A stretch of 48,073 nucleotides of DNA from NCBI GenBank assembly GCA_022425195.1, contig JAKMFX010000012.1:116160-164232 (forward strand), read 5' to 3'. This stretch comes from Flavobacteriales bacterium. Lineage in GTDB: Bacteria > Bacteroidota > Bacteroidia > Flavobacteriales > UBA7430. This document shows, piece by piece, positions 12,603-32,554 of the stretch. The notes under the pieces are model-generated. The model was not told where the DNA came from. It did not search any database and saw only the letters and a list, made by a program, of their open reading frames with translations. Position numbers and translations under genes: made by a program. Within the stretch, counting starts at the first letter, position 1. Every line of letters begins with the position of its first letter.

Positions 12603-12986
12603 TTATTCCTGCTTAAGCAACCATTCTCTTGCTTTCTCTATGTTGGTGAATGAGCTGATGACAAAATTAGGCTTATTGATGCCCAAAAAAAAGTTGGCAA
12701 TCAATCTGGACAATGAATTGTGTACCAACATAGCACAGGCCTTGTGAGCTACAACCATTCGATGGGTATTGATAAATTTTCTAGAAAACTTATCCATCCC
12801 CACAAGGTTTTTAAAATGTACCAAAAGCAAAACACCCTGCCCTGTTTCATCCAACTCCTCTACCCCTTCTAAATGTTCTTTGATGGTTTTTAAATTGTGT
12901 TTCGTCTTAACTGGGAATTTCAAATGAACAATCCCATCTACATCTAGAGTTAACAACTCATTACTTGTTTTTACTTCCTTTATCAT
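12603..12986 (-). CDS. Small STAS-like (SpoIIAA-fold) domain protein
   Basis: This 127-residue soluble protein has no signal peptide or membrane segment. Its alternating beta-alpha pattern and the central GQGVLLLVHFKNL-type strand, followed by a helix and FTNIEKAREWL at the end, resemble the STAS/SpoIIAA-like domains found widely in Bacteroidota (a DUF7793-type group, from memory). It lies 11 bp behind a PAS histidine kinase, so the two are cotranscribed. A partner or output role next to the kinase is plausible because no response regulator is adjacent. This is inference from fold-like features and context. Confidence 0.55.
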   Translation of the reverse strand: MIKEVKTSNELLTLDVDGIVHLKFPVKTKHNLKTIKEHLEGVEELDETGQGVLLLVHFKNLVGMDKFSRKFINTHRMVVAHKACAMLVHNSLSRLIANFFLGINKPNFVISSFTNIEKAREWLLKQE

Positions 12987-12997
12987 AATTTCTAATT

Positions 12998-14080
12998 TTA
13001 GGGGTTTGGGAAAAATAACTGAATGATTGTCCCTTCATTCTCCTTTGACACAACATCAATGGTTCCCTTTTGAAGCTCTATCAATCTTTTAGATATAGAA
13101 AGCCCAAGGCCAGTAGATTTCTCTCCCTGAGTACCCAACCTTTTGGTGGAGGTGAAAACATCAAATATAAAGGGCAAATCGTCCTCGGGAATACCTATTC
13201 CTTTGTCGGAGATATTTATGGTTAATCCACGATCTGTGGTCTCTAAGTAAACACTAATGACACCCGAAGAATTACTAAACTTTATAGCATTGGACATCAG
13301 GTTGGTTAATATTTGTGAAAACCGAAGGGAATCCAACGAAAATAAGGTCTGTGTATGGGGCAGATGAACGGTGATTTCTTTCTCTGTGATTTCGGCTAAA
13401 AATGATTCTGCAACAAAGTGAATTCGCTCCTCTACAATAAACTCAGAAATATGTAGCTGAATGTAATCAACATCGGTTTGGATGTAGGACAATAAATCTT
13501 CCATAAGCAAAAGGGTTTCCTTACAATTACTTACGATTTGACGGATATCATTGACAGCAAGGTCCTTTTTATTTGTCCTGAGGAAAGACTCCGCTATGAT
13601 CTTAACTCCAGAAATAGGGGTTCGTAAATCATGAGCCAACATCTTGACGACATCACCTTGAACTTTGTATAAATTATTAAGCCTTAATTCTTCTTCTTTT
13701 CTCTGAGTTACATCCGCAGAAATACCCACCATATGAGTGACGAAACCATCCGCAGAAATTACGGGTATAAATTTACCATACAGCCAGTAGACATGCTCAT
13801 TGGGTTTGATGATTCTGAAGTCAAAGTCTACAGGTTTTTTATTTTTTAAGGAAGTGATGAAAGATCGAATAAGCATCCTTTTATCGTCGGGATGTATGAC
13901 CATTTTAAAAAACAGATAGGGATCAGATGATAAAAATTCCTTGTCTACTCCGAAAGTTTCAAAAGTATCATTGATGTGTAAAATTTTTAAATCCAATCCA
14001 TCAACATTGGTCACAAAAACCACATGATCGATATTATCAAAAATAACATCAAGCATTTCATAGGTGCTAATCTGTCTCAT
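12998..14080 (-). CDS. PAS-domain sensor histidine kinase (hybrid-free, apparently cytoplasmic)
   Basis: This 360-residue protein has a PAS domain with a PAC tail at about 10-128, a HisKA dimerisation helix with the phospho-accepting His150 (MLAHDLRTPISG), and an HATPase domain to the end. The N box (LTNLMSNAIKFS), G1 (DKGIGI, 292-297) and G2 (GLGLS, about 324-328) are all present. No membrane helix is visible, so it should sense a cytoplasmic signal through PAS. It has no receiver domain and no neighbouring response regulator. A small STAS-like gene follows at 11 bp. The 504-bp region upstream probably holds its promoter; a TAATTTTG element on the minus strand (14132-14139) fits a -7 box, but without a matching -33. 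Confidence 0.92.
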   Translation of the reverse strand: MRQISTYEMLDVIFDNIDHVVFVTNVDGLDLKILHINDTFETFGVDKEFLSSDPYLFFKMVIHPDDKRMLIRSFITSLKNKKPVDFDFRIIKPNEHVYWLYGKFIPVISADGFVTHMVGISADVTQRKEEELRLNNLYKVQGDVVKMLAHDLRTPISGVKIIAESFLRTNKKDLAVNDIRQIVSNCKETLLLMEDLLSYIQTDVDYIQLHISEFIVEERIHFVAESFLAEITEKEITVHLPHTQTLFSLDSLRFSQILTNLMSNAIKFSNSSGVISVYLETTDRGLTINISDKGIGIPEDDLPFIFDVFTSTKRLGTQGEKSTGLGLSISKRLIELQKGTIDVVSKENEGTIIQLFFPNP

Positions 14081-15279: not shown

Positions 15280-15353
15280 GGCCCCGTAGCTCAACTGGAT
15301 AGAGTATCACACTACGAATGTGACGGTTGCAGGTTCGAATCTTGCCGGGGTCA
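15280..15353 (+). tRNA. tRNA-Arg (anticodon ACG)
   Basis: The 74-nt sequence folds into a full cloverleaf. The acceptor stem is GGCCCCG with CGGGGTC, including one G-T pair. The D arm is GCTC/GAGT, and the anticodon stem TCACA/TGTGA closes the loop CTACGAA with ACG at 15314-15316. The T arm is GCAGG/CTTGC around TTCGAAT. The discriminator is A and no CCA is encoded. A34 is expected to become inosine through TadA, so the tRNA reads CGU, CGC and CGA. Confidence 0.95.
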
Positions 15354-15359
15354 CTCAAA

Positions 15360-15400
15360 CGGAGAATTGGTTAACAAAAACCAGATCTTCGTTTTTTTTT
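15360..15400 (+). terminator. Intrinsic terminator after tRNA-Arg
   Basis: A 13-base arm (15360-15372) pairs with 15379-15391 through 12 pairs, two of them wobble, with one mismatch. A run of nine T (15392-15400) follows. Confidence 0.85.
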
Positions 15401-15421
15401 AGACCTAAAGTGAAGCAAACA

Positions 15422-15448
15422 AAAAGCCCACTCGATGAGTGGGCTTTT
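15422..15448 (-). terminator. Terminator of the TonB receptor gene, probably bidirectional
   Basis: AAAAGCCCACTC (15422-15433) and GAGTGGGCTTTT (15437-15448) are a perfect 12-bp inverted repeat around GAT. A-rich and T-rich flanks let it work on both strands. It lies 27 bp after the receptor stop codon. Confidence 0.88.
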
Positions 15449-15475
15449 AAATAACCATCTAAATTATCTATAGAT

Positions 15476-17944
15476 CTAAAGTTTAAATACGACTCTAGCT
15501 AAGAAATTTCGGCCCGCCTGTGGGTAATAGAAGTTTTCAACGGTTCTAACTTCCACGCCTTGATGTTCATAGGTACCTCCCCAGTTATAACCATTCGTTT
15601 CATAGGTTTCATCTAAAAGATTATTCACCAACAAACCGAAAGTCATCTCTTCAAACAACACCTTTTTTAAGGTGTAATCCAACTGAAGGTTAACCGTGGT
15701 ATATGCATTCAATTTTTGGGTTTCTGTAGAGGTATTATCCAAGTATTGGTCTCCTACATGCTTTCCTGAAAGATTGATACTCAAATCTTGTAAAGGCTCA
15801 TAAGTCACACCTAAATTAGCAACGATATTAGGAGAGAATGACAAATCTGTATTTTTGTGAGCAATGGTATTCTGCAAACCGGTATCCCAATTATCAACAA
15901 ACTCATTGAACTCCTTAATTTTATTACGACTAAAGCTTGCATTCGCCATCACACTTAATTGATTAGATAGGCGGTAACCTGCTTCCAACTCAATACCTGA
16001 ACGGTAACTAACACCCACATTTCTACGTGTGTAATCACCCACATCATTAATCTGTCCGGTTAGAACCAACTGATCGTTGTAATGCATATAGTACAGATTT
16101 GCATTCAGAATCAAATTCTTTCCTTTAAAACGATATCCTGTCTCAAGATTAACTAATTTTTCTACTTTGGGTTGATTTTGTGGGGTATTTTCTCTAAAAT
16201 CTTTTCTTACCGGCTCACGATTCGCAACCGCAAGAGAGGCGTAAGCATTGTTTCGCTCATCAAAATCATACATCAATCCGAATTTTGGGTTGATAAAATT
16301 GAAGGTCTTTGTTTGCTGAACGTCTTTGATCTCACCAGCAACTTCATCAACACCCAAAAATGTATAGTCAATGTATCTGTATTGCAGATCCCCATAAAAG
16401 GTTAAGGGACCGTTATTATAAGTTCCCTTTATGTAAGAGTGAGCTTCTTGTTTCTTCGCGTCATTGTCGTAGTAACGATCTCTAATATCGCTATCTGATG
16501 CGTATTCTGACCAAATCACCTCACCGAAATGCCCTCCTTCATATTGGTTGGCTCCACCACCAAAGGTTATATCGAGTCCATTCTCAGCATAAGCAAAAGA
16601 AAAGATTCCTCCATAAAAATGGTTATCAAGCCACTTTCTTCGTATCAAATCGGTTGTACTGATGGTGTCTTGAGAAAAAATTAGTGTTTTGAAGCCGTAG
16701 TCGCTAAAATCTTCATCTGCCTTATATTGCTCATAATATCCTCTTCCTCGGGTGTAATGTGCCGCAGTACTGAACTTCAAATGTTCATCAATCAAATGAG
16801 AAAAGTGCAGTTGATAATGATCTTGCTGATAATTGTCTATCTCGTTGTCGTAGGTATAGTAGTTATAGGTTCTGCCCGAAATAAGTAAGTTTTCTCTATC
16901 GTCGCCAAAAATATAATTTCGGTCAGCATAGGCCGAAATTTCGTCTTTATCACCATTGATGACCGATTCAGGGGTACCGTACCATGCTTGAGCTGTTTTC
17001 TCCTTACCACTAAAAAGAGTCGCTCTAAGATTCGATTTTGATCCCAACCAAACACCAGAAAGGTAGTAAGACTTTAACTCCGATGCAGAGCGATCTATAT
17101 AACCGTCAGACTGGATCGCAGATAATCGCGCATCAATGATAAACTTATCATTAAGCAGGCCAGTACCTACCTTAACTGTATTTTTAAACGTATTAAAGGA
17201 TCCAAAAGAATTGTCTAATACGCCATAAGCTTCCTTGTTTAGACTGTTGGTCTCCATATTAATGCTAGCCCCAAAAGCAGCGGCACCGTTTGATGAGGTT
17301 CCCACTCCTCTTTGAACCTGAATACTATTTAAGGAAGAGGCAAAATCCGGCATATTTACCCAGTAAACACCATGAGATTCAGAATCGTTAAGAGGAATCC
17401 CATTAATGGTCACATTGGTTCTGGTAGGATCCACCCCTCGAATACGAATCCCAGAATAACCAACACCAGCACCGGCATCTGAAGTCACAACAGTAGATGG
17501 TAGAGCGTTTAATACATAAGGAATGTCTTGACCGAAATTGTTTTCCTCGATTTCTTCCACATCGAGCTCAGAATAGGTCGTAGGAATTTTTGGATTGGCT
17601 CGAGTGGCAGACACCGTAACCTCATCAAGAAGTAATGCTTTCTTACTCAAAACAACCGTGACTTCTTGATCGGCATTTGGAACCTCTACTATTTGAGACA
17701 AAGAAACAAAACCCTCTGAAGAAAAATTAAGCTGGTAAGTCCCCGAATCTAGTTTACCAAACTCAAAAACACCCTCAAGGTCGGTGTAAGTTTTGAAGTA
17801 CGTTTGTTGGATTTCTACTTCAACATTGGAAATGCGACTTCCATCGATTCCTTTTACGATTCCAGTGATGTTGTTTTGAGAAAATCCGACTAAGGGCATA
17901 AAGAGCATTAAGCCACAAACTTTTGAAAAAATTCTTGTTTTCAT
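15476..17944 (-). CDS. TonB-dependent outer-membrane receptor under a TPP riboswitch (putative thiamine receptor)
   Basis: The 822-residue precursor begins with a signal peptide (residues 1-22, ending GFSQ). A carboxypeptidase-regulatory-like domain at about 25-108 is usual for Bacteroidota receptors, and the plug at about 125-235 includes RIRGVDPTRTNVTINGIPL and VQRGVGTSSNGAAAFGASINM. The rest is the beta-barrel, ending in an aromatic-rich strand and a terminal Leu (FLARVVFKL). Such receptors import scarce ligands with TonB-ExbBD energy. There is no SusD partner, which argues against a glycan role. A thiamine pyrophosphate riboswitch directly precedes it, so thiamine or a derivative is the probable cargo; this is inference from regulation. 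Upstream on the same strand are a PnuC-type transporter and a NadR-like kinase. Confidence 0.93.
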   Translation of the reverse strand: MKTRIFSKVCGLMLFMPLVGFSQNNITGIVKGIDGSRISNVEVEIQQTYFKTYTDLEGVFEFGKLDSGTYQLNFSSEGFVSLSQIVEVPNADQEVTVVLSKKALLLDEVTVSATRANPKIPTTYSELDVEEIEENNFGQDIPYVLNALPSTVVTSDAGAGVGYSGIRIRGVDPTRTNVTINGIPLNDSESHGVYWVNMPDFASSLNSIQVQRGVGTSSNGAAAFGASINMETNSLNKEAYGVLDNSFGSFNTFKNTVKVGTGLLNDKFIIDARLSAIQSDGYIDRSASELKSYYLSGVWLGSKSNLRATLFSGKEKTAQAWYGTPESVINGDKDEISAYADRNYIFGDDRENLLISGRTYNYYTYDNEIDNYQQDHYQLHFSHLIDEHLKFSTAAHYTRGRGYYEQYKADEDFSDYGFKTLIFSQDTISTTDLIRRKWLDNHFYGGIFSFAYAENGLDITFGGGANQYEGGHFGEVIWSEYASDSDIRDRYYDNDAKKQEAHSYIKGTYNNGPLTFYGDLQYRYIDYTFLGVDEVAGEIKDVQQTKTFNFINPKFGLMYDFDERNNAYASLAVANREPVRKDFRENTPQNQPKVEKLVNLETGYRFKGKNLILNANLYYMHYNDQLVLTGQINDVGDYTRRNVGVSYRSGIELEAGYRLSNQLSVMANASFSRNKIKEFNEFVDNWDTGLQNTIAHKNTDLSFSPNIVANLGVTYEPLQDLSINLSGKHVGDQYLDNTSTETQKLNAYTTVNLQLDYTLKKVLFEEMTFGLLVNNLLDETYETNGYNWGGTYEHQGVEVRTVENFYYPQAGRNFLARVVFKL

Positions 17945-18007
17945 ATTTTAAAAAATATTATCCAAGAACAGGGGCTAATTCTATGGTGTTAGTTTTAGCA
18001 CTTTTTT

Positions 18008-18089
18008 ATCACTTCCCTTCGCAGGCATTATCCTGAGCAGGTTAAATGGGTGTAATCTCAGCCGCTCAAAAGCAGCACCCCTTAGAGAT
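18008..18089 (-). promoter_or_regulatory. TPP (THI-box) riboswitch
   Basis: On the minus strand the conserved elements appear in order: CTAAGGGGTGC, then GCGGCTGAGATTACACCC (the pyrimidine-sensing arm with CTGAGA), then CAGGATAATGCCTGCGAAGGG (the pyrophosphate-sensing arm), with closing stem ATCTCT / AGTGAT. This is a near-textbook TPP aptamer. About 63 nt separate it from the receptor ATG. I see no clear terminator hairpin in that leader, so control may act on translation. It lies after the stop codon of the upstream kinase gene, so it can control the receptor but not the transporter and kinase ahead of it. Confidence 0.95.
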
Positions 18090-18103
18090 GAGGCAAAATT
18101 ACA

Positions 18104-18610
18104 TCAAACTTTCATAAGAGCGTCAATCTCTTGCCAACTTTTTTTCAATCTTTCTTCGTGAGTTCCAGAAACAATGATAAAATTCTTACCGTGCTTATTC
18201 AAGGATTCTAGATACAGTTCAAACAGCTCATTTCGGGAATCAGGACTCTCCCTGAGCGGATCTTTTTCCCAGGGGATGTCTGGGCTGCATAAGATGTGTA
18301 AGTCGAATATATCTTTGCGGATAAATTCATTTATTAAAGCTGAAACCTTTTTGTATTTGTACATCGACCACACTTCCAAAACCAAAAAATCAGTATCGGA
18401 AATCAAGATGTCTTCAGAAGATAAAAGCAAGCTTTTAAATTGCCCTTGAGCAATTAAGTCGAGATCTTTTTGGTCGTAAACACCTTGGGTTTTCTCCAAA
18501 TGCATACGCGCATACTCAGAAACGTATGAAACGCCATAGTGCGCAGAAAGTGAGGCACACAATGTGGTCTTGCCTGAAGATTCAGGTCCTGTTATGGCCA
18601 CCTTCATCAT
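18104..18610 (-). CDS. NadR-like P-loop kinase next to a PnuC transporter (putative vitamin kinase)
   Basis: This 168-residue protein has Walker A GPESSGKTT (8-16) and then YVSEYAR near residue 35, the pattern of the AAA_28 / NadR ribosylnicotinamide-kinase group. The nucleotidyltransferase and helix-turn-helix domains of full NadR are absent. A Walker-B-like ISDTDFLVLEVW segment follows. It starts inside the stop codon of the transporter gene (ATGA overlap, or one codon later with TGATG), so the two are translationally coupled. Next to a PnuC carrier such kinases trap the vitamin by phosphorylation. The TPP riboswitch beside it makes thiamine as likely a substrate as nicotinamide riboside. 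Substrate unproven. Confidence 0.75.
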   Translation of the reverse strand: MMKVAITGPESSGKTTLCASLSAHYGVSYVSEYARMHLEKTQGVYDQKDLDLIAQGQFKSLLLSSEDILISDTDFLVLEVWSMYKYKKVSALINEFIRKDIFDLHILCSPDIPWEKDPLRESPDSRNELFELYLESLNKHGKNFIIVSGTHEERLKKSWQEIDALMKV

Positions 18611-19206
18611 GACAATTGACGCTTGTACTCCTTTTTCCAGGCCATGAAACCGTAAATGGCCAAAAGGGTGAATATTCCGTATTGAACAGCTGTTAAGTAA
18701 TAATCCTGTTGCGTGTAGAGGTATATAGAAACCAAATCAATGACAATCCAATAAATCCAATTCCCCATAATTTTTCGAGTCACCATAAAGGTTGCTGATA
18801 AACTGTAGCAGGTCGTGAATGCATCCACATAAGGGTTGGCCTGAAGGGTGTAATGATCAAAAATAAAACCAAGCAGCAGTGCTACAAAGCCACTGACAAC
18901 AATATTTAGAACATGATTTTTAAAACTCCATGTTTTTATTTCAACATCGTCTGCTTTAGACAGCTTCCAACTGAACCAACCCACCACAGCCATAACCACA
19001 TAAAAAAGCTGTAAAATAGATTCTATATATAAATGACCAACATAACATAGATAAACAAATAAAGATGAGCCTATAAAAGCGAACCACCAACAGATCAGCA
19101 TTCGCTTTGCGGCAAGCACTACGTAAGTGAGGCTAGACAAAACTGCCAGCCATTCAATAATGGATGTCGCTTTAATACCTTCCCATAAAAGTGTGAAAAA
19201 TGACAT
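18607..19206 (-). CDS. pnuC: PnuC-family vitamin transporter (probably thiamine, PnuT type)
   Basis: This 199-residue membrane protein has about seven hydrophobic segments. It carries the PnuC-family pattern: LQLFYVVMAVVGWFSW near residue 65-80, WIYWIVIDLVSIYLY near 151-165, and the late MAWKKE. PnuC proteins are facilitators for nicotinamide riboside, and relatives named PnuT and PnuX carry thiamine and riboflavin. Position next to a TPP-riboswitched TonB receptor favours thiamine; the sequence alone does not decide. The gene is first in a minus-strand unit and overlaps the kinase gene by 4 nt. No riboswitch is visible in the 215 bp before it. Confidence 0.85.
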   Translation of the reverse strand: MSFFTLLWEGIKATSIIEWLAVLSSLTYVVLAAKRMLICWWFAFIGSSLFVYLCYVGHLYIESILQLFYVVMAVVGWFSWKLSKADDVEIKTWSFKNHVLNIVVSGFVALLLGFIFDHYTLQANPYVDAFTTCYSLSATFMVTRKIMGNWIYWIVIDLVSIYLYTQQDYYLTAVQYGIFTLLAIYGFMAWKKEYKRQLS

Positions 19207-19421
19207 TAAAATTGGGTTCTAAGATTCGTTGATTGTGTAAAAATACATCAAAAATGGTCCTCAACATTAATTATTTAGAACAAGTTAAAAGCAGTGAAAT
19301 ATGGAAAACGGTAGGCTTTTATCAAAAAAAAAGTAAAACTTTAAAATATAAGATTAAATAATTCGGTTTTTCTTGAGGAATTCTCACAGCTTAGCTATTT
19401 TTGTGCAAAACCATAGCTATT
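19207..19421. other. Divergent intergenic region between the transporter and TPR-like genes
   Basis: AT-rich, with no gene. It holds a well-formed plus-strand promoter at 19373-19403. I found no TPP aptamer on the minus strand here. Confidence 0.5.
19373..19403 (+). promoter_or_regulatory. Bacteroidota-type promoter of the TPR-like membrane protein gene
   Basis: TTG (19373-19375), a 20-bp spacer and TATTTTTG (19396-19403) match the Bacteroidota -33/-7 pattern. It places the transcript start just before ATG 19422 and rules against a GTG at 19401 as start. Confidence 0.6.
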
Positions 19422-32026: not shown

Positions 32027-32554
32027 ATGACAAAACGCATTCTAATTTCTGGAGCACCAGGTACGGGTAAAACCAGTATTATAAATGAATTATCCAACAA
32101 AGGATACCCTTGTCATTTTGAAGTATCAAGAGAAATCATCTCTAATCAAATAGCCTCAAAAGGTAAAATAACCCCATGGCAAGACCTAGAGACTTTCAGT
32201 CAAATCGTTTTTAAAAAACGAAGGATTCAGTTTGACAATACAACAGAAAAAATCACCTTTTATGACCGAGGCATCATTGATGTCATTGCCTACATGCGGA
32301 AAGAAGGTTTGAAAATCAATCCCGAATGGATTCGGATAGCAAAAGAATATCGCTATTTTAACAAAGTTTTTATCGCTCCTCCATGGGAAGATATTTACCA
32401 AAATGACGAAGAAAGAATGGAGGACTTTAACACAAGTATAGAAGTACACAAATACATGGTAAGTACATACGAATCATTTGGTTATGAGATTGTATTGATC
32501 CCCAAAGTCAGCGTAAACAAAAGAATTATTTTCATACAAAGGGAAATTGAATAA
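32027..32554 (+). CDS. AAA_28-type P-loop ATPase/kinase of unknown substrate
   Basis: This 175-residue protein has Walker A GAPGTGKT (9-16), then EVSREII near residue 36 (compare YVSEYAR in the kinase at 18104-18610), TFYDRGIIDV as a Walker-B-like segment, and a lid APPWEDIYQNDEERMED with charged residues. This is the pattern of the AAA_28/TTD14-like family, which resembles nucleoside and vitamin kinases. The gene is first in a tight run with recQ (8-nt overlap) and fmt. The substrate is unknown; no transporter is adjacent. Confidence 0.8.
   Translation: MTKRILISGAPGTGKTSIINELSNKGYPCHFEVSREIISNQIASKGKITPWQDLETFSQIVFKKRRIQFDNTTEKITFYDRGIIDVIAYMRKEGLKINPEWIRIAKEYRYFNKVFIAPPWEDIYQNDEERMEDFNTSIEVHKYMVSTYESFGYEIVLIPKVSVNKRIIFIQREIE

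Follow-up and report, generated by a model that had tools for sequence, protein, structure and literature searches.

Which enzyme phosphorylates thiamine in a bacterium that encodes ThiL and no recognizable thiamine pyrophosphokinase (TPK), and which genes does a thiamine pyrophosphate (TPP) riboswitch control when it stands behind a transporter gene and a kinase gene and in front of a receptor gene? Both questions are raised by a locus in a stretch of 48,073 nucleotides (nt) from a Flavobacteriales bacterium (GenBank assembly GCA_022425195.1, contig JAKMFX010000012.1, positions 116,160 to 164,232), the whole of which is referred to here as the window. Open reading frames (ORFs) and an RF00059 scan agree on the minus-strand order pnuC, NadR-type kinase, TPP aptamer and TonB receptor, as the initial annotation had read it from the letters, and the aptamer that it placed at 18008-18089 falls inside the RF00059 match (18092-17998). 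The features of the locus are, in the direction of transcription:

18607..19206, minus strand: PnuC/PnuT-type inner-membrane vitamin transporter, 199 amino acids (aa); ORF, PF04973 at 168 bits, TIGR01528 at 94 bits
18104..18610, minus strand: P-loop kinase of the NadR type that lacks an adenylyltransferase domain, 168 aa, candidate for the conversion of thiamine to thiamine monophosphate; ORF, PF13521
18094..18101, minus strand: candidate -7 promoter box TAATTTTG (TAnnTTTG) for the receptor transcript, at the kinase stop codon; sequence and conservation
17998..18092, minus strand: TPP riboswitch aptamer; RF00059, 58.9 bits, E 4.1e-9
18077..18082, minus strand: aptamer strand AGGGGU, complementary to the leader C-tract
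17970..17975, minus strand: leader C-tract GCCCCU, some 25 nt ahead of the receptor start codon, a candidate anti-aptamer strand
17962..17986, minus strand: candidate hairpin with the C-tract in its loop; fold, covariation in relatives
15476..17944, minus strand: TonB-dependent outer-membrane receptor, 822 aa, candidate thiamine receptor (OMthi/Omr1 type); ORF, PF00593, PF07715, PF13715
15422..15448, minus strand: intrinsic-terminator-like hairpin and T-run 3' of the receptor gene; 12-pair stem, consensus scan

We consider it quite likely that these genes are a unit by which a thiamine auxotroph scavenges the vitamin. The TonB receptor would carry thiamine across the outer membrane and the PnuC-family protein, acting as PnuT, would pass it through the inner membrane, where the NadR-type kinase would convert it to thiamine monophosphate (TMP) and so trap the vitamin, and ThiL, encoded elsewhere, would make TPP. 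The kinase would have replaced TPK by non-orthologous displacement. Only the receptor would be under feedback by TPP: a promoter located where the kinase gene ends would start a transcript headed by the aptamer, and any read-through from pnuC and the kinase gene would carry the aptamer as well. A C-tract in the leader would pair with the AGGGGU strand of the aptamer and exclude the TPP-bound aptamer, and TPP binding would shift the leader to its off state, most likely at translation. Somewhat less firmly, if still as the probable case, we regard the kinase as an unassigned thiamine-kinase family, a free-standing NadR-type domain, that replaces TPK in most examined genera of the order and in parts of other Bacteroidota orders, with TPP feedback confined to the receptor via a dedicated promoter and a C-loop hairpin that competes for the aptamer G-tract.

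Profile searches of the window genome (1.77 Mb, 98.98% complete) found ThiL, at 308.9 bits against a cut-off of 184.15, and no TPK (PF04263), ThiE-like protein, ThiC or ThiK. With the enzymes searched (TPK, ThiL, ThiC, ThiE-like proteins and ThiK), ThiL without TPK means that thiamine reaches TPP only via TMP. To judge by the distribution of the genes, the thiamine kinase that these bacteria seem to lack is probably the kinase of the locus. Our sample of the order comprised 147 genomes with a completeness of at least 85%; ThiL was over its cut-off in 116 of them, TPK was present in 61, and ThiK (TIGR02721) exceeded its cut-off in none, as compared to 1 of 14 controls, nor is it listed in the NCBIfam scan of the kinase itself. 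A profile built from 33 kinases detected the kinase family in 92 genomes, with best scores per genome of 94-231 bits and the next protein class at 39 bits. Kinase and TPK are nearly complementary: 81 genomes have the kinase only, 50 have TPK only, 11 have both and 5 neither. By genus, the kinase occurs in 46 and TPK in 8 of 57, with one genus in common (genome lists were taken from the TPK, ThiE-like and kinase result tables, genus counts from their tallies). Of the five genomes with neither (handles denote genomes by G, with G000 for that of the window, locus stretches by L, family-level groups by f and genera by g), G020, G022 and G023 have a ThiE-like protein, G025 is a 0.3-Mb genome and G147 is in 340 contigs. 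Finally, with three f15 genomes scored as ThiE-negative because they exceed the ThiE-like cut-off only through neighbouring matches, 76 genomes are without ThiE-like protein and TPK, and 74 of these 76 contain the kinase, which in 74 of the 147 genomes is thus the only candidate for the step from thiamine to TMP among the enzymes searched. Two TPK-containing genomes of f3 g7, G062 and G101, have kept pnuC, a DUF4301 gene, an RF-1-domain gene, the aptamer (44.2 and 34.1 bits, respectively, that in L151 being weak) and the receptor, and miss the kinase (L150 and L151; Pfam assignments for L150 only). The genomes of f15 g23 contain TPK, no kinase and no ThiL over the cut-off. The idea that the kinase could act on thiamine, put forward when the locus was first described, has thus gained in substance.

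The kinase consists of a PF13521 (AAA_28) domain alone (97 bits) and has no adenylyltransferase domain; in keeping with its initial description as a NadR-like kinase lacking that domain, it reaches 81.1 bits with the NadR model TIGR01526, whose cut-off is 341.15, and does so in the kinase part only. The nearest structures to its predicted model (pLDDT 96) are NadR kinase domains, with a Z score of 23.2 to 8x7f, and the NadR-type fold and catalytic motifs are present, the invariant columns being G8, G13, K14, E32, R35, D72 and R120. A34 and Q57 are each found in 57 of 66 locus-type kinases, with G and H in three NadR domains. At 1e-9 the kinase profile has no second match in G000. AAA_28 as such has three matches in the window genome, and ORFs of about 180 aa with this domain occur in many genomes of the order. 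A second AAA_28 gene in the window (32027-32554, plus strand), which encodes 175 aa from its ATG and lies upstream of a gene that by eye looks like recQ, was considered as a like kinase and dismissed, for it shares at most 23% identity with the locus kinases and sits on a very long branch. Searches of an open-access library found no paper that names this kinase as a thiamine kinase. As for the partners of the kinase, the PnuC protein exceeds the cut-off of TIGR01528 (42.45 bits) and is the single match of its family in G000, and the receptor is about 50-71% identical to entries from Cryomorphaceae, Crocinitomix, Fluviicola and Brumimicrobium.

Is the placement of the aptamer a peculiarity of the window? 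The initial annotation had taken it as a departure from the usual arrangement, a view that we reject, since the same order recurs in six family-level groups. TPP aptamers were matched at E 0.001 in 118 of the 147 genomes and above the gathering score in 42, and the family-level search found them in 7 of 12 genomes, all seven of which, window included, have the order pnuC-kinase-aptamer-receptor. Together with the window, the 86 aptamer loci that were fetched make 87, 75 of which, each from a different genome, are followed by a receptor start within 400 nt; the promoter and leader counts given below leave out the other 12, at least one of which lies at a contig end. In 36 of the 75 loci, spread over the six groups and 23 genera, no more than 100 nt lie between the kinase gene and the aptamer that follows it. 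In 13 the kinase gene is upstream on that strand at a greater distance, and in five genomes of a single genus it is convergent, with pnuC and downstream of the receptor, these 18 being within about 4 kb, whereas it is elsewhere in the genome in 14 and missing from it in 7. Hence 54 of 68 genomes have the kinase linked to a TPP aptamer, which bears out the association first noted in the window. In seven genomes (G018, G031, G054, G024, G034, G047 and G093) kinase, aptamer and receptor are together and PnuC is encoded elsewhere.

Outside the order, a search of 296 genomes of the phylum yielded a kinase match at 1e-20 in 75. Among 20 stretches that were read, PnuC is next to the kinase in 13 and a TPP motif is present in 4; two of these four motifs were confirmed by Infernal and have the kinase directly upstream, which extends the arrangement of the window to another order of the class. 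The 80 named loci whose receptors are nearest include 34 with the kinase within 3 kb on either side and 11, one of them from Marivirga, in which it is at most 200 nt upstream of the TPP motif; in eight Pontibacter loci it is 1.4-1.7 kb upstream. The motifs in the named loci and the 20 stretches were identified by a simple pattern and not by a covariance model. Outside the order, most of the kinase matches that were read have no aptamer nearby, and a search for related loci from the kinase alignment found no conserved stretch.

Some features of the neighbourhood may be recorded here. A block of ahcY (on the opposite strand), a phosphopantetheinyl transferase and a PcrB-type gene recurs upstream of pnuC-kinase in several families (L150:546-5902, L060, L083, L120 and others; Pfam for L150 only), and the f3 loci have DUF4301 and the RF-1-domain gene between kinase and aptamer. 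Fusions of the kinase occur with DUF4301 in f3 g7 (L152:3769-5886), where kinase frames measure 733-800 aa and the one tested (L152) is fused, and in f7 g47 with the kinase C-terminal to phosphopantetheinyl transferase (L111:1482-2684). Two f3 g7 loci have a match to the Rfam Flavo-1 RNA (75-76 bits) close to their upstream end with ahcY (L151:8213-8294 and L152:188-263). TPP aptamers stand directly before pnuC in one f7 and four f5 genomes (L089, L144-L147), whose PnuCs form one clade. Finally, in G125 and G115 NadR-like proteins with an adenylyltransferase domain are encoded beside a different PnuC, with no TPP match near them in the 8-kb stretches read; L159:3335-4898 and L160:3312-6926, in which PnuC is beside a two-domain NadR-like protein, in L160 with an adjacent receptor gene, are possible nicotinamide riboside uptake loci.

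The window aptamer scores above the RF00059 gathering score of 54.3 bits in the covariance model search and is the only TPP match at E 0.001 in its genome. The -7 element of Bacteroidota promoters is given as TAnnTTTG in three studies (PMC6847099, PMC7366714, PMC9723704). The window box TAATTTTG at 18101-18094 conforms to this consensus of the primary sigma factor and would place the transcription start near the first bases of the aptamer. The exact motif, with its first base 18 to 7 nt ahead of the aptamer, occurs in 63 of 75 loci, and the looser TAnnTT[TC]G is there in 69, as compared to a background of 0.6% in 1796 upstream control windows and 1.8% in 7500 shuffles. It is present both where the kinase stop codon is at most 35 nt from the aptamer (27 of 30 loci) and where no kinase lies upstream on that strand (20 of 26). 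Because of this conserved box directly before it, the riboswitch most likely heads a receptor transcript of its own. Since the genome has a single aptamer, pnuC and the kinase gene would be free of TPP control. The claim of the initial annotation that control is restricted to the receptor is thus retained, whereas its premise of one transcript for all three genes is not needed. A box upstream of pnuC was also considered as a general feature and led nowhere, as just 5 of 37 loci have the exact motif in the 100 nt that precede pnuC.

How might TPP then act on the receptor gene? Most of the 75 leaders contain a C-tract complementary to the aptamer AGGGGU, typically 20-30 nt before the receptor start codon. 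In 68 of 75 loci (43 of 48 genera) the duplex predicted for a leader and its own aptamer is more favourable than that with shuffled leaders. It also surpasses the duplex with leaders swapped from other genera, in 55 of 75 loci (35 of 48 genera; p 0.0025 by genus), and this points to coevolution; in the window the energies are -11.6 (own), -9.3 (shuffled) and -9.8 kcal/mol (swapped). In 44 of the 66 leaders in which the C-tract pattern was found a predicted hairpin encloses it, a count made without shuffled control; that of the window, folded as a 40-nt piece, has -5.8 kcal/mol and 8 enclosing pairs. In an alignment of nine f11 leaders the stem consists of 95.7% standard pairs, shows changes on both sides at 5 of 8 pairs and has a covariation score that 0 of 500 shuffles reached, although the choice of these leaders by eye from loci with a predicted hairpin favours pairing. 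In the ligand-free minimum-energy fold of the window leader, AGGGGU (18082-18077) is paired with GCCCCU (17975-17970), a helix that is present in three of four folded f1 leaders and missing in one. As the TPP-bound aptamer closes over the same G-tract, the two states of the leader would be mutually exclusive, and the C-tract leader is likely the expression platform. A scan of 15300-19300 found no terminator between aptamer and receptor start, so that translation is the more likely level of switching; one weak terminator-like site over the 5' strand of the aptamer is at chance level. A separate observation by eye concerns five f3 leaders (L065, L080, L083, L085 and L088), in which another short inverted repeat, variable in sequence, appears to reach right up to the receptor ATG.

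Several observations weigh against this interpretation of the locus. As to the kinase, its nearest characterised relatives phosphorylate nicotinamide riboside, and two NadR-like proteins, also in genomes with the locus type, overlap at 104.5 and 109.9 bits with the weakest locus kinases. In the tree, from which short fragments in L096, L105 and L108 were left out, the three NadR domains are together but inside the kinase set, beside one f9 sequence, and clade membership therefore does not settle the substrate. The PnuC tree decides neither for nicotinamide riboside nor for thiamine, and one PnuC of a kinase-free genome is encoded near nadA. The kinase is not near the aptamer in 14 of the 68 genomes that have both kinase and TPP-receptor, and the kinase frame at G113:C3:155391-155882 (L096) contains four in-frame stops in an otherwise complete locus, as a decayed gene or through an assembly error. 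All eleven genomes with both TPK and kinase belong to f3 g7. Although Fisher tests of the complementarity give 1.3e-22 by genome and 9e-6 by genus, they ignore phylogeny and are not independent evidence; TPK is limited to few clades, and the independent events behind the complementarity are few. Seven f5 genomes (G058, G082, G102, G116, G126, G131 and G136) have TPK and ThiL without ThiC, ThiE-like protein or kinase, so that ThiL alone is no strict marker of the TMP route, and six kinase genomes of 86-97% completeness (G003, G026, G038, G054, G089 and G137) have no ThiL over the cut-off. As to the regulation, 12 of 75 loci are without the exact promoter box, and the -33 element of the window is not clear, with a TTG 22 nt upstream of the box (consensus TTTG/TTG). 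In 7 of 75 loci, including two of three f6 and all three f11 g34 loci, shuffled leaders pair with the aptamer at least as well as the locus's own leader does, and a mixed alignment of 15 leaders, likewise picked by eye, is only 77% paired, with a covariation score reached by 0 of 500 shuffles.

Could the kinase and PnuC then be a nicotinamide riboside salvage pair that happens to neighbour a thiamine receptor? The kinase is closest to NadR kinase domains in sequence and fold and is not separated from them in the tree, and PnuC is above the cut-off of a nicotinamide riboside transporter model. Yet such a pair would leave 74 genomes without a known thiamine-phosphorylating enzyme, and it does not account for the complementarity of kinase and TPK or for the finding that 54 of 68 genomes have the kinase linked with a TPP aptamer and receptor, some of them with PnuC elsewhere. 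A34 and Q57 set the locus kinases apart from the three NadR domains, and the kinase profile finds no protein of NadR length in the window genome, though it does so in others. Pairs of pnuC and kinase among NAD genes, an arrangement that had been named as contrary to a thiamine function, were not seen in 12 of the 14 genomes with the kinase away from the aptamer; the neighbourhoods read are those of G012, G016, G017, G019, G030, G046, G053, G073, G083 and G118, with G036 and G076 within 1.5 kb only and without G041 and G044, and the gene names in them are mostly from protein starts recognised by eye. We therefore hold a nicotinamide riboside pair to be decidedly unlikely. Import of TMP or TPP, with ThiL as the finishing enzyme and a kinase that acts otherwise, for instance on a thiamine precursor, appears very unlikely to us. 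ThiL in 116 of 147 genomes, among them the seven with TPK and without ThiC, ThiE-like protein and kinase, would suit it, but it leaves unexplained the presence of the kinase in genomes that lack TPK and its absence from two loci in TPK-containing genomes, and PnuC-type proteins typically carry unphosphorylated vitamins.

With regard to transcription, pnuC, kinase and receptor genes might form one operon in which the internal riboswitch serves as an intra-operonic attenuator with no separate promoter. All three are on one strand, the end of pnuC and the beginning of the kinase gene share 4 nt, the gap between the kinase stop codon and the start of the aptamer model is just 11 nt, and exact boxes are rare upstream of pnuC. 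Against this, the box precedes the aptamer whatever lies upstream and is there in 27 of the 30 loci with the closest kinase genes, and five genomes, all of one genus, have pnuC-kinase in convergent orientation downstream of a receptor with its own TPP aptamer. A single operon is thus improbable, and we prefer a thiamine scavenging unit in which the riboswitch and the receptor gene behind it would be transcribed from a separate promoter. At the other end of the receptor gene, the terminator-like site is weak by count alone, as the scanned region contains 4 such sites versus 2.7 expected. Further downstream on the same strand, at 12603-14080, a DUF7793 protein is encoded directly 3' of a PAS histidine kinase in an apparent two-gene unit.

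New in this work are the assignment of the enzyme and the mechanism of the leader, both as predictions. If confirmed, the kinase would be an annotation marker for thiamine salvage. In coastal water, several Bacteroidota clusters are without any described system for B1 synthesis or uptake, according to PMC10881298. The leader would offer a concrete model of the expression platform of TPP riboswitches in a phylum that, according to PMC6847099, is naturally without Shine-Dalgarno sequences, and the locus points to the possibility of feedback on the outer-membrane step only. A preprint of 2019 reportedly deals with TPP riboswitches of Bacteroides. PMC5613172 calls the mode of action of these riboswitches in Bacteroidetes uncertain.

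The closest known system is that of Bacteroides, where OMthi, pnuT and tnr3 (BT2390, BT2396-2397) are in riboswitch-regulated operons; in most gut genomes OMthi-pnuT-tnr3 form one operon, and where it is split the riboswitch is kept and sometimes duplicated (PMC5613172; the names Omr1, PnuT and Tnr3 are used for relatives as in the papers). The window locus resembles it in combining a TonB receptor, a PnuC-family transporter, a TPP riboswitch and a nearby phosphorylating enzyme. It differs in that a NadR-type kinase takes the place of Tnr3 and in that the aptamer, with a promoter box of its own, follows pnuC-kinase instead of coming first, in a genome without TPK. With the ribosylnicotinamide kinase domain of NadR (TIGR01526; PDB 8x7f, 6gyf and 1lw7) the kinase shares the fold, the P-loop and invariant D and R residues; unlike NadR it has no nicotinamide mononucleotide adenylyltransferase domain, carries A34 and Q57 for G and H and is linked to TPP aptamers. 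With TPK/ThiN (PF04263) and E. coli ThiK (TIGR02721) it would share the phosphorylation of salvaged thiamine, but it belongs to another family, and TPK and ThiK were not found in the window genome. The aptamer, finally, is a member of the RF00059 class by its score, to which the window leader adds a C-tract complementary to the aptamer G-tract.

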